Assembly: GCF_021389955.1 (NCBI RefSeq)
Contig: NZ_CP089980.1
Span: 4,025,001 to 4,089,000, forward strand
Length of the DNA: 64,000 nucleotides
Direction: 5' to 3'
DNA from: Fulvivirga maritima
GTDB taxonomy: Bacteria; Bacteroidota; Bacteroidia; Cytophagales; Cyclobacteriaceae
A program made the position numbers and the translations under genes. Positions 46,874 to 56,288 of this stretch are shown in pieces. The notes beneath the pieces were generated by a model. That model was not told the DNA's origin. It did not search any database and worked only from the letters and a program-made list of their open reading frames with translations. Position 1 is the first letter of the stretch. Every line of letters starts with the position of its first letter.

Positions 46874-48265
46874 CACTAGTGTCCGAGAAAAAAGATAGGG
46901 GCCTCTGAATAATTTCAGGAGTGCCCCATAATGTGTATTTTCGGTTTACCACAACAAAAAATCACACATGAGTAAAAATACATATTTCTACGGACAGCCA
47001 ATCTTTTCTCAACTATTATCGCTGATAGATAAATCGGTGTTAAATCAAATAATATCAAAATACCAATCTGACAGATATTACAAGAAATTGAATACTTGGC
47101 ATCACCTAGTAAGCATGTTATACTGCTGTTTCAGTGGGGCAAGTGCTCTCAGAGAGCTTACTACGGGGCTTTTGGCCTGCCAAAACAAGCTGATCCACTT
47201 AGGTATTCAATTTATACCCAGACGTTCCACTTTATCAGATAGCAACAAAAAACGCAGTAGTATAGTCTTTGCAGACATTTACATGAAATTGTTTAAAAAG
47301 TATCGGCACCTTTTGCCGGACAGCCGCTTGAGAATGGAAGTTCTCAATAAACTTTATATTGTTGATTCAACGATTATTAGTCTGTTTAAAGATATTCTCA
47401 AGGTAGCAGGACGCCCTAGAAAAGATGGCAAAAGCAAGGGAGGCATTAAAGCTCATGTAATGATTCATGCGGCAGAATTAATGCCATGTTTAGTACGGTT
47501 GACCAAGGGAAGTCAGCATGATCATACATTTTTAAAGCAATTACAACTCCCAGAAGGATCCTATGTGGTGATGGATAAAGGGTATATCGATTATAGACAA
47601 TACGCACAGTGGAGTCATCAAGGGATATTTTACATTACCAGAATGAAGGAAAATGCCAGATATCAATCAATAGATGAGCTAGAATTGCCTGAAGATAAAG
47701 ACTTTTGTGTACTTAAGGATGAAAAAGTTGTTATCAGTTTCAAGACTGATGGACAAGTGCAAGAGCTTCAAAATAGAAGAATAGCCTATTATGATGACCT
47801 CAATAATAAATTATTAGTGTTTATGACCAATAATATGGAGTTGGAAGCAGCCACAATAGCGGCCATTTATAAATACCGATGGCAGATAGAGCTTTTATTT
47901 AAAAAGCTGAAGCAGAACTTTCCTCTCAAATATTTTCTGGGGGACAACCAAAATGCTATTGAGATCCAAATTTGGAGTGCCCTGATCTGTCTATTATTGA
48001 TGGAAGTAGTCCGAAAACAGATCAAAAAAAGATGGGCCTTCTCTAATATGGTCTCATTGGTAAGGTTTCACTTGATGGCCTATGTTCACCTTACCCGCTT
48101 TCTAAACAATCCAGACCTAGAACTTCAAAAAACAATATATAAAACCAATCAATACCCTTTATTTAGTCCATAGAGGGCTCACTTTTCCAGATTAGAAGAA
48201 AACCACTTTATTTTTGCTTAGAATCGCTAAAATTTCTTAGACCAGAGTTTAGTCGGACACTAGTG
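46874..48265 (+). mobile_element. IS4-family insertion sequence, complete (1392 bp)
   Basis: The element is bounded by perfect 13-bp terminal inverted repeats: CACTAGTGTCCGA (46874-46886) and TCGGACACTAGTG (48253-48265). It is flanked by an exact 9-bp target duplication AATAATTAT (46865-46873 and 48266-48274). One transposase gene fills it. Intact ends and clean duplication point to a recent insertion. It lies 28 bases before a 50-codon ORF, so it probably separates that gene from its original promoter. Confidence 0.97.
46968..48173 (+). CDS. IS4-family transposase (DDE)
   Basis: 401 residues, full length. N-terminal DUF4372-like part (HHLVSMLYCCFSGASALREL), the first Asp in YIVDSTIISLFKD, the second in VVMDKGYIDYRQYAQW, and the YREK-type signature YKYRWQIELLFKKLKQNF with the catalytic Glu. 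These residues form the DDE site that cuts and joins DNA. No frameshift is present, so the enzyme could be active. The gene lies inside the IS element with all its parts intact. Confidence 0.95.
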   Translation: MSKNTYFYGQPIFSQLLSLIDKSVLNQIISKYQSDRYYKKLNTWHHLVSMLYCCFSGASALRELTTGLLACQNKLIHLGIQFIPRRSTLSDSNKKRSSIVFADIYMKLFKKYRHLLPDSRLRMEVLNKLYIVDSTIISLFKDILKVAGRPRKDGKSKGGIKAHVMIHAAELMPCLVRLTKGSQHDHTFLKQLQLPEGSYVVMDKGYIDYRQYAQWSHQGIFYITRMKENARYQSIDELELPEDKDFCVLKDEKVVISFKTDGQVQELQNRRIAYYDDLNNKLLVFMTNNMELEAATIAAIYKYRWQIELLFKKLKQNFPLKYFLGDNQNAIEIQIWSALICLLLMEVVRKQIKKRWAFSNMVSLVRFHLMAYVHLTRFLNNPDLELQKTIYKTNQYPLFSP

Positions 48266-51898: not shown

Positions 51899-52354
51899 AT
51901 GTCAGAAGATAATTCATATGATAGTGAGGTTTTTGCTTCCACTCTTGAAAAATGCAGGTTATTTAAACTAAAATATCCGAAAGGTGGGCAATATAATGAT
52001 GGTTTTGAGTTAAATGGAACTCTTCATAGAAATAGTGCTCATGAACTTTTAGGGTTATTAGATGACTTGGGCGTAGATTATATGCTTCATGATACAGAAC
52101 CGGAGTTAGAAAAAGACCAATATGGATTTGCTATAAATTGGTGCAGACCTATAGTGGTGGATAATAAAAAAAAGTGGTTGGAACTGAATAACAGGAGCGA
52201 ATGCTTCGGTTTTAAAACATACCTTCAGGTAAATCCTGATCAATATACGATTACTTTTAATTTTAACTCTACCAGCTGGTATGATGTGGTATTGGAAGAT
52301 GTAGAAAGGGCTTTGTCCTTTGAGAATGAATTGGATAGAAGAGGGCTGGTGTAG
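51899..52354 (+). CDS. Hypothetical protein, 151 aa
   Basis: Acidic soluble protein with no signal peptide. It has alternating charge and aromatic strands (LEKCRLFKLKYPKGGQY, then YGFAINWCRPIVVDNKKKW and FKTYLQVNPDQYTITFNFN). No family recognised. It stands alone, reading towards the TonB-type barrel gene on the other strand. Confidence 0.7.
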   Translation: MSEDNSYDSEVFASTLEKCRLFKLKYPKGGQYNDGFELNGTLHRNSAHELLGLLDDLGVDYMLHDTEPELEKDQYGFAINWCRPIVVDNKKKWLELNNRSECFGFKTYLQVNPDQYTITFNFNSTSWYDVVLEDVERALSFENELDRRGLV

Positions 52355-52473: not shown

Positions 52474-55170
52474 CTAGAATCTGTATTCTACCTTGAGCAT
52501 TAAATACCCAGGAATTATTCTGTAAGATATTTGCGAAAGAGCCACATCGGAAAGGTCTGATAGAGTATAGCTCTTATTATTCAACAAATTCTTGCCTTCT
52601 AAGAAGAATGTCATTTTGTTTTTCTTTACTTCATACTTGCAAGATAAATCTAAAAACAGTGTGTGCGTGTCATTTGAGGATAATCCTCCAAAGTTGTAAT
52701 AATCGCCACTTACTTGCCAGCTTAGTTTATTTGTCAATAAAAATGACAGGTCTATAAAACTATTCTTGTTGGTAAAACTTGATTTCACTACGTTTTCTGA
52801 AGATTCAGAATTTACATGTAGCTGATTATTAATAATCATTAAGCCTATGTTATAATTAAAAAATCCGGAAAATGCCGATCTTAACTCTAACCCTACAAAG
52901 TAATTGTTAGCATTTACTTCTCTTAAATTGTGATTAACATAATTATTAAAAGAGGTGGCAGAAAGGCCAAAATTAATCTTAGCATTAGTCCTTAATTTAT
53001 TGATATAACAATCTAGATTAGAACTAAGGTTTATCTTGTTTTGATTATGCATAATAACCTTCTCCAATGTCACATAATTAGGGGTAACCGTGGAAGATGT
53101 TGAAAAAAAGTCATCGTTATGAGTGTAAAGGAAATATGTGTTAAACAAAAACAGATCACTCCAATTGCCTAATCTATAATTTACTAAAATAGAACTTCCA
53201 GGTAATTGATTAAAGTTACCAACTCCCATCTCAAACTGTCGAAAACCAGTTATTGCAAATTGATCATATACTTGCCAGACGGAAGAATTGGTGAATTTAT
53301 ATGCATATGATATGTATATATGATTAATATTATTTATATCCCAACCTAGTATTACGCTAGGGTTTAATTGTAAGAATTTTTCATGAGTTGAAGATGAGTC
53401 AATTCTTTGTATTGTGTTCTGTATATAATGAGTGTCAACACTACCTGAAACTTCTATGTTAGACAGTTTTAATTGGTATTTGGCTCTAATATGAGAGTCA
53501 TGAAGCAAGTAATTAATGTTATTTTGGAAACCACTGGGGTAAGTGGCTTTTAGGTCATTATATAATGTTAACCTAGATTTAAGAGGGGTGCTTTTATATA
53601 AATGACCAGCTTGAACCTGTACTATATCTCCTTTTTTCTGAAATTTATGGAAGTAGTTGCTATTTATAAAGGCATACTTATTTGTGAGATTACTGTTTTG
53701 ATTTAAGCTATTTCCACTCCCTATTTCGAACAACTCCTGATAGAGATATTTATTAACTGAATATTTTTGATCATTAGATCCATCTTTATAGCCTGCATTA
53801 ATATTAAGAATACTATTATCTTGTATTTTTTGGCTGAGCTTAAGTTGTTGCTCTATTGAGGAAAAGTTAGTATTTAAAGTTTCATTGATTTCATCTTCAT
53901 TGAAAATTAATTGATTGAATCCTTTTTCTATACCCAGAGAAAATCTGGTATTTGATTCAATAATAGTATTTTTAGTATTATCAAAGAGTAAATTTATTTG
54001 AGTAATACTAGTGTGGTCAACTTCATTTAAGTTGTAATCATTCGTATTAATAAATGAGGTGTCTGCTATGAAAAATTCATTCTGGCTCAACTGATAGTAG
54101 TTATTATCTTTTCGGTCATATAGTTCTAAAATTTTCAGTTTTAATGTACTGGAAAGATTATATATTGCATTTACTGTGGCTAATTGATCATTATTGAGAT
54201 TAGCCCTGTCCTCACCAAAATTTGATTGGGTTTTAGCCAATTCTACTAAAACTTTTTCGTTTAAAGTTTGACTTCCAAACTCATTGTCGGGTTTGTCATT
54301 GATCAAATGATCAATTTCTCCAGTTGCATTTTTACCTGTATTATTTAAATCTCCTATAATGTAATATTTGCTCTTTTTTGCAAACTTGAAGATATTGGTT
54401 TGAAATAGATGTCTATGTTTTTCAGATAAGCCATAACCTGCTTTAATATTAGCAAACCATTTGCTTTTCACATCATCATTAAGTTTCAGGTTGAGGGCTA
54501 CTTTATCGCTGTTATCGATCCCTCTGAGGAGCCTATTCTCATTGTAGTTTTGAAGAAGTTCAACTTCAGATATGGGTTGTGCAGGCATGTTTTTTGTAAG
54601 TACTTTATATCCATAACTAAAGAAGTCGTCTCCTTCAACCATTACTTTTTCAACTTCTTTTCCTTGTACTTTTATGGTGCCGTCTTCACTAACGCTAATG
54701 CCTGGAATTTTCTTTAAGAGGTCTTCCACTACTTCTTCATTTCCATCAGTAAAGGCTTTTGTATCAAATACTAGAGTGTCTTTCTTTATTTTTATGGGTT
54801 GATTTCCTGAAATAATGACTTGATCAAGTTGCAATATGTCTTCGGATAAAATAACATTTATAGTAATGATATTATCCTTTTGCAAGGTTAATGCTTGAAC
54901 ATGGCGCTCATAGCCTAGCGAAGATACTGATAAGAGAAAATCTCCTTTTTTTGAGTATTTAATTGAAAATTCACCATTATTATCCGAAAAGCTATAATTT
55001 AAAATAAGACTATCTTTTGTTAATAATTGTATAGATGCTCCAGGAATAGCTTTTGAGGATTCGTCTTTAATTTGACCTTTAATTAGTACTTGACTAATTG
55101 AATTAGAAATAGAGCAAAAAAGCAGAAAGGTTATAAAGAGGAGTTTATTACTGTGTGTTCTCCAAGTCAT
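52474..55170 (-). CDS. TonB-dependent-receptor-like outer-membrane barrel (PF14905 type)
   Basis: 898 residues. Signal peptide (LLFITFLLFCSISNSISQ), a carboxypeptidase-regulatory-like beta domain at about 28-115 (KGQIKDESSKAIPGASIQLL), a plug-like domain (LDQVIISGNQPIKIKKDTLV, then DLLKKIPGISVSEDGTIKVQ) at about 115-220, and then a long barrel with aromatic strands to the end (KVEYRF). The plug resembles those of PF14905 outer-membrane proteins rather than SusC. It starts 23 bases inside the end of the GLPGLI gene, so the two are co-translated. It would take up or export a ligand across the outer membrane. Confidence 0.85.
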   Translation of the reverse strand: MTWRTHSNKLLFITFLLFCSISNSISQVLIKGQIKDESSKAIPGASIQLLTKDSLILNYSFSDNNGEFSIKYSKKGDFLLSVSSLGYERHVQALTLQKDNIITINVILSEDILQLDQVIISGNQPIKIKKDTLVFDTKAFTDGNEEVVEDLLKKIPGISVSEDGTIKVQGKEVEKVMVEGDDFFSYGYKVLTKNMPAQPISEVELLQNYNENRLLRGIDNSDKVALNLKLNDDVKSKWFANIKAGYGLSEKHRHLFQTNIFKFAKKSKYYIIGDLNNTGKNATGEIDHLINDKPDNEFGSQTLNEKVLVELAKTQSNFGEDRANLNNDQLATVNAIYNLSSTLKLKILELYDRKDNNYYQLSQNEFFIADTSFINTNDYNLNEVDHTSITQINLLFDNTKNTIIESNTRFSLGIEKGFNQLIFNEDEINETLNTNFSSIEQQLKLSQKIQDNSILNINAGYKDGSNDQKYSVNKYLYQELFEIGSGNSLNQNSNLTNKYAFINSNYFHKFQKKGDIVQVQAGHLYKSTPLKSRLTLYNDLKATYPSGFQNNINYLLHDSHIRAKYQLKLSNIEVSGSVDTHYIQNTIQRIDSSSTHEKFLQLNPSVILGWDINNINHIYISYAYKFTNSSVWQVYDQFAITGFRQFEMGVGNFNQLPGSSILVNYRLGNWSDLFLFNTYFLYTHNDDFFSTSSTVTPNYVTLEKVIMHNQNKINLSSNLDCYINKLRTNAKINFGLSATSFNNYVNHNLREVNANNYFVGLELRSAFSGFFNYNIGLMIINNQLHVNSESSENVVKSSFTNKNSFIDLSFLLTNKLSWQVSGDYYNFGGLSSNDTHTLFLDLSCKYEVKKNKMTFFLEGKNLLNNKSYTLSDLSDVALSQISYRIIPGYLMLKVEYRF

Positions 55171-55963
55171 AACGCTCTATATTTTCATTTTTACAACTCT
55201 CACAATTTCGATCAATTTTCATAGGAGTAGCACCTTTTGGCGTATACCTTGCAGCTAGTTTGGCGAAATTTTCTTCGGTTAGTCGATCTCTTTCATTGAG
55301 GTAGTTTTCTATAATTAATGCCTGATCTAAGTCATTAGGAACAGTTAATTTGCAATTGTTCGTTGTAGAATTGAGGTTTACATGTTGTGCTACGATGTAT
55401 AGTAATTTATCGGCATCATAGATTTCCATAATTAGGCCAGGGAGACCGTAAGCTTTCCATGGACCATAGGGTACTGGTATTTTAGTTGTAAACCAAGCGG
55501 TATAATCTCTACCTCTAAAGTGTGCTGTGGCTTTTTGACATAAGAAGTTTCCTATATTCTTTGATTCTGGCAGTAATTCCCAATTCCATAGGCTGTCTCG
55601 ATCGATTACAACTAAGACGTGATTATACCATATTTCTCTAAAATAGAGATGATCTTTCGAATTATAGTAAAATTTAGGAGTCAGATTCTTACGTCCGGAA
55701 ACTATAGTCATAGTACCGCTGGTATATTCTCCTGAGTTATCATATGCTTTGTGTTTTTGATCAGATGATTTGTTGATTTCAATTTCTTCCGTATATGAAC
55801 CTTTTGTGCCGAAAGTCATCTCATATGTTGTGTTAAATGTGCCATATGAGAATGATTGAGTTTCATTATATATCACTTTACCACAATTAGTGTTTTGTGC
55901 GATTAAAGGAGCAGTGACTAGCACTAATAAGAAAAATGAGAATAAAATTTTATAACTATTCAT
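55148..55963 (-). CDS. GLPGLI family protein
   Basis: 271 residues with a signal peptide (LFSFFLLVLVTAPLIAQ). The family name motif lies at about residue 177 in WKAYGLPGLIMEIYDAD (TIGR01200). A CxxC-type pair, NCESCKN, sits near the C-terminus. It is secreted, probably periplasmic or surface-attached, and of unknown biochemical role. It lies directly between a short Cys-containing secreted peptide gene and the TonB-type barrel gene, with which it overlaps. GLPGLI proteins are commonly found next to such barrels in this phylum. Confidence 0.92.
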   Translation of the reverse strand: MNSYKILFSFFLLVLVTAPLIAQNTNCGKVIYNETQSFSYGTFNTTYEMTFGTKGSYTEEIEINKSSDQKHKAYDNSGEYTSGTMTIVSGRKNLTPKFYYNSKDHLYFREIWYNHVLVVIDRDSLWNWELLPESKNIGNFLCQKATAHFRGRDYTAWFTTKIPVPYGPWKAYGLPGLIMEIYDADKLLYIVAQHVNLNSTTNNCKLTVPNDLDQALIIENYLNERDRLTEENFAKLAARYTPKGATPMKIDRNCESCKNENIERYDLENTQ

Positions 55964-56021
55964 TGTAAATTCTATATAACTAGTTTCATAAGATGATAAA
56001 AAATTTGAAATGAAAAAAGTG

Positions 56022-56049
56022 AAGGCCGAATAATGAGGTATACGGCCTT
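56022..56049 (-). terminator. Terminator just after the peptide gene
   Basis: AAGGCCG pairs with CGGCCTT around a 14-base loop. T-rich sequence lies on both sides (TTTTTT after it on the minus strand at 56014-56019). It stands between the peptide gene and the GLPGLI gene, so read-through would set the peptide-to-receptor ratio. Confidence 0.75.
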
Positions 56050-56060
56050 ATTTTTTAATG

Positions 56061-56288
56061 TTATCGTATTTCAACTTCATCTAGGCAATAGGCATAAACC
56101 CATTCACCGCAGGTACGGGTTCCATTAGAAGTGGTGCATATGCGGTATCTACAATAACCTTCATTAACCATTTCATACTCATATTTAACCGTATTTGTGG
56201 TCGGTGAGTCTGATTTTTCTAAGTCATTGCTCAAGGCAAAGCCCACTGAAGCAATTGTCAAAACTGAAAGAAGAATAAGTTTTTTCAT
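56061..56288 (-). CDS. Short secreted peptide precursor with four cysteines
   Basis: 75 residues: a signal peptide (MKKLILLSVLTIASVGFALS) and a mature part of about 55 residues. The mature part has Cys46, Cys51, Cys60 and Cys68, spaced x4, x8 and x7, in a Tyr-rich context (GYCRYRIC and EWVYAYCLDE). Two disulfides are possible. No family recognised. It is followed by a terminator and then the GLPGLI and TonB-barrel genes on the same strand. The layout suggests a peptide whose partners are encoded next to it, such as a receptor-bound or exported peptide. Confidence 0.75.
   Translation of the reverse strand: MKKLILLSVLTIASVGFALSNDLEKSDSPTTNTVKYEYEMVNEGYCRYRICTTSNGTRTCGEWVYAYCLDEVEIR

Follow-up and report, generated by a model that had tools for sequence, protein, structure and literature searches.

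Short secreted cysteine peptides recur beside GLPGLI genes in Bacteroidota: a candidate peptide-handling module in Fulvivirga maritima

What connects a short secreted cysteine peptide with the GLPGLI gene and the outer-membrane barrel gene that follow it on the same strand? The question is raised by a stretch of 64,000 nucleotides (nt) of Fulvivirga maritima contig NZ_CP089980.1 (positions 4,025,001 to 4,089,000; hereafter the window), in which a preliminary description had proposed a dedicated peptide system. A check of the open reading frames (ORFs) confirmed the layout described there in full: on the minus strand lie genes for a 75-amino-acid (aa) secreted peptide precursor (56061..56288), a secreted GLPGLI protein (55148..55963) and a TonB-dependent-transporter-like outer-membrane barrel (52474..55170), the last 23 nt of the GLPGLI gene, stop codon included, being also the first 23 nt of the barrel gene from its ATG. 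The precursor has a signal-peptide-like start (approximately residues 1-20) and four cysteines, at positions 46, 51, 60 and 68.

Recurrence and diversity of the peptides

We scored short ORFs by a strict rule: same strand, 40-130 aa, a signal-peptide heuristic, at least two cysteines after residue 20, and a position inside the cluster or no more than 700 nt upstream. Across the 64-kb window the peptide gene is the sole short ORF that passes, which exceeds chance expectation. For the recurrence counts, from which the window's own cluster was left out, regions were taken best-scoring first among the matches listed rather than at random. The order sample (291 genomes of the order, searched with the window GLPGLI protein) gave 80 regions, one of them a second locus in the F. 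maritima genome, and 77 evaluable clusters; L084, L093 and L146 were left out because their GLPGLI ORF had been discarded in gene calling, and L084 (as L054) and L093 (as L060) do have peptides. The phylum sample (296 genomes) gave 60 regions, and a named set comprised 32 loci, 20 of them from Mucilaginibacter or Pedobacter. Since the rule was devised after the order-set loci had been viewed, the phylum sample is the cleaner test.

A peptide was found at 25 of the 77 order clusters (24/69 with a barrel, 1/8 without) compared to 6/297 control genes in the same loci, and at 13 of the 60 phylum clusters (10/29 with a barrel, 3/31 without) compared to 5/286 control genes. Controls pooled over the named and order sets amounted to 10/432, with 4/135 from the named set. 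When only genes with at least 200 nt free upstream were compared, the peptide accompanied 21/56 GLPGLI genes versus 6/148 other genes in the order sample (Fisher p-value 5e-9) and 14/45 versus 5/141 in the phylum sample (Fisher p-value 2e-6). GLPGLI genes were also enriched relative to other signal-peptide genes (4/42 in the order, 1/25 in the phylum; p-values 0.002 and 0.013). By eye, two strict-rule positives (L091 and L121) look spurious and seven loci (L077, L083, L095, L109, L123, L160 and L164) seem to hold peptides that the rule overlooked; the counts were left unchanged. Secreted cysteine peptides and GLPGLI genes are recurrently associated, and the survey of GLPGLI loci suggested in the preliminary description bears this out in the order and phylum samples but not in the named set.

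The peptides themselves are diverse. In an alignment of 47, one nearly invariant cysteine is common to them beyond the start methionine. Grouping by eye separated a class A (13 peptides), which has a C-G and a late cysteine in common, from a class B (13 peptides), with a first cysteine often in C-T-V-T and a second often in T-C-x-x-A. Searches of the 47 against Pfam and NCBIfam returned scattered weak matches only (best E 0.0004), and none matched PHROGs. The commonest family, the PG1828 lipoprotein (three members, best E 0.0022), covers residues 1-41 of the window peptide, for which no Pfam or NCBIfam family scored above cut-off (below it, DUF333 at E 0.043 and PG1828 at E 0.0066).

Searches that start from the peptide lead back to GLPGLI genes. 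In one genome (G154), both matches lie in front of a GLPGLI gene (E 4e-18 and 1.8, the second weak); in another (G567), a single GLPGLI cluster holds all four, which include the query and a short fragment; and across five genomes of one genus, all three matches, query included, lie just upstream of a GLPGLI gene with no barrel nearby. A class A model built from its 13 peptides was run on 395 genomes and 51 matches were listed. With 'full-length' defined, after the matches had been viewed, as a frame of at most 130 aa without internal stop that reaches model position 57 or beyond (the single TAG in the G096 row being read as the peptide's own stop codon), all seven short full-length matches lie beside GLPGLI; two are rows of the model and four were previously unseen (L306-L309). 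The remaining matches, which are leader-only, long-frame or stop-broken, were set aside. For class B, the full-length cysteine-bearing ones among the matches listed are peptides already in the model, and one leader-only match (L312) is a peptide with two cysteines, 57 nt ahead of a GLPGLI gene. Taking the loci from both models together, GLPGLI was present in 7 of 60, and in 5 of 12 wider regions; in the other seven wider regions the peptide-like ORFs printed have at most one cysteine, antisense or lipoprotein-like ORFs excepted. At one locus (L311, genome G885), three short secreted ORFs stand in tandem; they consist of KKDVGTAD-type repeats and contain no cysteine.

Some clusters repeat the pairing. 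Writing p for peptide, G for GLPGLI and B for barrel, the order pGpGpGB was met once, pGpGB twice and GpGB once. These alternating orders suggest one GLPGLI protein per peptide; the orders pGGB, ppGB and pGGGGB also occur. Sister peptides within a cluster may have exchanged parts. At L074, two neighbouring peptides match at 59 of 60 nt of signal-peptide DNA but show no relation in the DNA on either side of it. At L208, two peptides have 59/60 nt of signal DNA and part of the upstream DNA in common, with unrelated mature parts. Where near-identical silent sites adjoin unrelated sequence, recombination or gene conversion of a signal cassette is the likelier source, as opposed to point mutation alone.

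The GLPGLI protein, the barrel and the flanking features

The middle gene of the trio belongs to the GLPGLI family (TIGR01200/PF09697, Porph_ging): it scores 136.6 bits against TIGR01200, where the cut-off is 50, in agreement with its earlier identification. The family has a near-invariant core, with W128, A145, G173, L174, P175 and G176 present in 98-100% of 222 proteins. Cys142 is kept in 82% of the 222 (91% of the 65 proteins whose locus has a peptide, 78% of the 156 whose locus has none). The NCESC-type cysteine pair singled out in the preliminary description is private to the window protein, as none of the 221 other GLPGLI proteins has a cysteine in either column, and we reject it as a functional site. 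The number of cysteines in GLPGLI proteins does not differ between loci with and without a peptide (1.83 versus 1.79).

A structure model of the GLPGLI protein, built from 38 proteins, has a predicted core resembling the N-terminal domain of PNGase F-II and the LolA/RseB fold. Its best matches are PNGase F-II and a related PNGase (Foldseek E 2.9e-6, Z-score 11.6), chiefly in their N-terminal domain. A weak Pfam match of the window protein is likewise to PNGase_F-II_N (E 0.0085). Further matches are VioE, MucB, RseB, ependymin-related and LolA proteins (Z 6-9); for the LolA/RseB half-barrel fold, Foldseek E-values range from 1.5e-3 upward on a model with a mean predicted local distance difference test score (pLDDT) of 68.7. 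No sequence relation to a solved chain was detected at E up to 1.

GLPGLI and barrel genes are tightly coupled: in 105 adjacent pairs separated by less than 400 nt, the two genes lie a median of 2 nt apart, and they overlap in 41 of the pairs. The window barrel matches CarbopepD_reg_2 and CarboxypepD_reg only, in its N-terminal domain, at E up to 1; neither PF14905 nor Plug is matched by it at that level, and Plug was matched in one of 23 aligned barrels. A low-confidence model (pLDDT 66.8, with large root-mean-square deviations) resembles TonB-dependent transporters, which make up the listed Foldseek matches (FoxA, E 4.5e-15). The 'PF14905-like barrel with a plug' of the preliminary description is only loosely right as a label.

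No secreted ORF with at least two cysteines was found at any of the 26 barrel-type proteins of the F. maritima genome that lie away from GLPGLI, and the barrel was rejected on this count as the peptide's chief partner. Because these lone barrels have no peptide and solo peptide-GLPGLI pairs occur with no barrel nearby, the firm partner of the peptide is GLPGLI. Where a barrel gene has 200 nt or more of free space upstream, a peptide was found in 2/19, 1/8 and 0/1 cases (order, phylum and named sets); these are L076 and L157, with the peptide gene placed between the GLPGLI and barrel genes, and L121, where it is probably the barrel's own start.

Other arrangements were also met. At one locus (L163, genome G579), a single barrel adjoins a run of seven consecutive GLPGLI genes, with no cysteine peptide detected. 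A second GLPGLI-barrel pair in the F. maritima genome (L003, 1364372-1368112) lacks a peptide in front and is accompanied by a divergently oriented HisKA/HATPase kinase gene. The window contains a DDE transposase with DUF4372 (46968-48173); at L005 in the same genome, an ORF matches this transposase over the part of the sequence displayed, and shares a 3.5-kb stretch with another GLPGLI gene, followed by a 70-aa fragment like the start of a barrel. A 151-aa plus-strand ORF (51899-52354) adjoins the window barrel gene and has no Pfam or NCBIfam match.

Two flanking features of the trio were set aside. The minus-strand hairpin and T-rich stretch between the peptide and GLPGLI genes (56022..56049) folds well (7-bp stem, z -3.49) and could be terminator-like or a stabiliser of the mRNA 3' end. 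The preliminary description took it as a terminator that leaves the peptide in excess. The hairpin is present, but hairpins behind peptides are not enriched in related loci (6/21 gaps versus 30/117 control gaps), and we reject its role as an expression-ratio device. The same description noted MacB/FtsX-type permeases on both sides. We dismiss these as genomic background: the genome has 50 MacB_PCD matches, several of them close together on one strand, and no MacB/FtsX-type permease was recognised among the 25 recurring neighbour groups printed, whose representatives were inspected by reading.

A candidate peptide module and its alternatives

We tentatively read the window trio as one copy of a module that many Bacteroidota carry, made up of cysteine peptide, GLPGLI carrier and, usually, TonB-type barrel gate; we put the chance of this slightly below even. 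A small, disulfide-type peptide would be produced together with the GLPGLI protein, with a barrel usually following. Its signal peptide suggests that it would reach the periplasm through Sec. There the LolA/RseB-like core of GLPGLI may bind or carry its cognate peptide, as the gene pairing and predicted fold would have it, and the barrel may act as the outer-membrane gate, export being likelier than return. The mature peptide would be the variable, function-bearing part, and new variants could come in part from the fusion of a signal-peptide cassette already present with another mature part, a possibility raised by the DNA pattern in two genomes. The mechanism and the direction of peptide handling are what we infer here. 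We favour export on two grounds: the peptide begins its path in the periplasm, and Oar, a CarboxypepD_reg-type TonB-dependent transporter whose N-terminal domain is of the type seen here, is required in Myxococcus xanthus to export the periplasmic protein PopC (available sections of PMC6434023). This precedent is only suggestive. The fuller proposal, in which GLPGLI proteins would be dedicated periplasmic carriers of a large hypervariable set of disulfide peptides that exit through a TonB-energised barrel and diversify by exchange of signal and mature cassettes, is doubtful in our estimate.

A number of results weigh against the carrier module. The strict-rule peptide is absent from 52 of 77 and 47 of 60 clusters, and the named set shows no enrichment (1/32 clusters; 1/16 GLPGLI genes versus 3/54 others). 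Codon usage of the window peptide is not decisive, with 9 of 35 spurious ORFs scoring equally well or better, and no homologue was found beyond its own genome among the 145 genomes searched. There is no detectable homology across the peptide classes, so that membership is a matter of position and general make-up. The class A figure depends on a cut picked after the fact; a laxer one (model position 50) gives 7 of 9, with L251 and L275 lacking a GLPGLI gene within 1.5 kb. The class B model yielded no new full-length peptide among the matches listed, which were mostly leader matches. The confidence of the GLPGLI model is middling (73 of 271 residues at pLDDT 90 or above), and a predicted likeness of fold is by itself no proof of function. 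Finally, the same sections of PMC6434023 place the Oar architecture in 28% of the TonB-dependent transporters tallied and call it common in Bacteroidetes, which makes it weak evidence, and an Oar variant without the CarboxypepD_reg-type domain still secreted PopC. What stands of the dedicated system originally proposed is its recurrence in the order and phylum samples, with GLPGLI rather than the barrel as firm partner; it did not carry over to the named set.

The absence of the peptide from most GLPGLI clusters would also be expected if GLPGLI-barrel operons simply lay in envelope-gene areas rich in short secreted ORFs, with the window peptide a chance or unrelated ORF. The indecisive codon usage would fit, as would the occasional presence of such ORFs at other signal-peptide genes (4/42, 1/25 and 3/17). 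Such a loose association is nonetheless very unlikely in our judgement, since it is contradicted by the enrichment in two samples, also relative to signal-peptide genes, by the return of peptide-first searches to GLPGLI and by the alternation of peptide and GLPGLI genes in clusters. That alternation, seen in a few clusters, would also suit antagonism, with the peptide as a secreted antibacterial, GLPGLI as periplasmic immunity protein or chaperone and the barrel as exporter or receptor. A variable mature part behind a common signal cassette and a patchy distribution (the window peptide occurs in 1 of 145 genomes, its own) are consistent with this. However, most immunity proteins are not known for a nearly invariant core such as that of GLPGLI, the window trio has no PADLOC match and no killing domain is recognisable, and we consider antagonism unlikely.

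Uptake or sensing reverses the direction of travel. On this view the peptide, secreted as a signal or as a carrier of some ligand such as a metal, would come back through the barrel to GLPGLI acting as an RseB-like sensor. Import is the usual job of TonB-dependent transporters, and the GLPGLI model matches the structures of MucB and RseB comparatively well. The alternative is kept alive by two-component genes adjoining GLPGLI loci: a response-regulator group, mostly divergent, lies beside 21 of them (the one representative scanned has LytTR) and a histidine-kinase group beside 17. These loci are mostly peptide-free, however; of the 21, two have a peptide, L079 under the strict rule and L083 on visual inspection. 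Together with the solo peptide-GLPGLI pairs without a nearby barrel, this makes uptake or sensing improbable to us. The two-component neighbours as such were met at L009-L038 and a few other loci (for example L020:3586-4278 and L017:4275-5423), mostly divergent.

The carrier module would matter in several ways. GLPGLI is a widespread Bacteroidota family named for its motif alone; with a partner peptide, it has for the first time a role that can be tested. The association also reveals a pool of unannotated secreted cysteine peptides. Export by the barrel, if real, would broaden the single worked case considered here, Oar and PopC, to TonB-driven secretion of peptides; if the peptides are toxins or signals, they might affect how members of the phylum, which is important in gut, soil and marine habitats, compete or communicate.

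Comparison with known systems

Oar is the closest precedent for the proposed gate, being a transporter with the same N-terminal domain type as the window barrel. The cargo differs: PopC is a 50.8-kDa protease without a signal peptide, whereas here the proposed cargo is a Sec-type cysteine peptide with a GLPGLI partner (available sections of PMC6434023). For GLPGLI itself, the accessible portions of the open-licence PubMed Central literature describe no role or partner peptide and use the name as annotation.

LolA is a periplasmic carrier, and the GLPGLI model aligns to LolA, RseB and MucB (Z 6-9), the fold also represented by LolB. GLPGLI shows no sequence relation to solved chains, and it lacks the catalytic PNGase part. 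The LolA fold has a precedent in a dedicated operon, as one LolA/LolB pair of Flavobacterium johnsoniae lies inside the flexirubin operon (available sections of PMC11885536).

No description of a peptide-GLPGLI-barrel system was found in the open-licence PubMed Central literature, subscription papers being outside this scope. In conotoxin-type secreted peptides, a conserved signal is combined with a variable mature part. Two loci here show a comparable pattern, with near-identical signal DNA and an unrelated mature part; unlike conotoxin-type families, these peptides are bacterial and lie beside GLPGLI genes. The parts are of known kinds, and the combination and its peptide set provisionally count as new, matching no known system that we can name.

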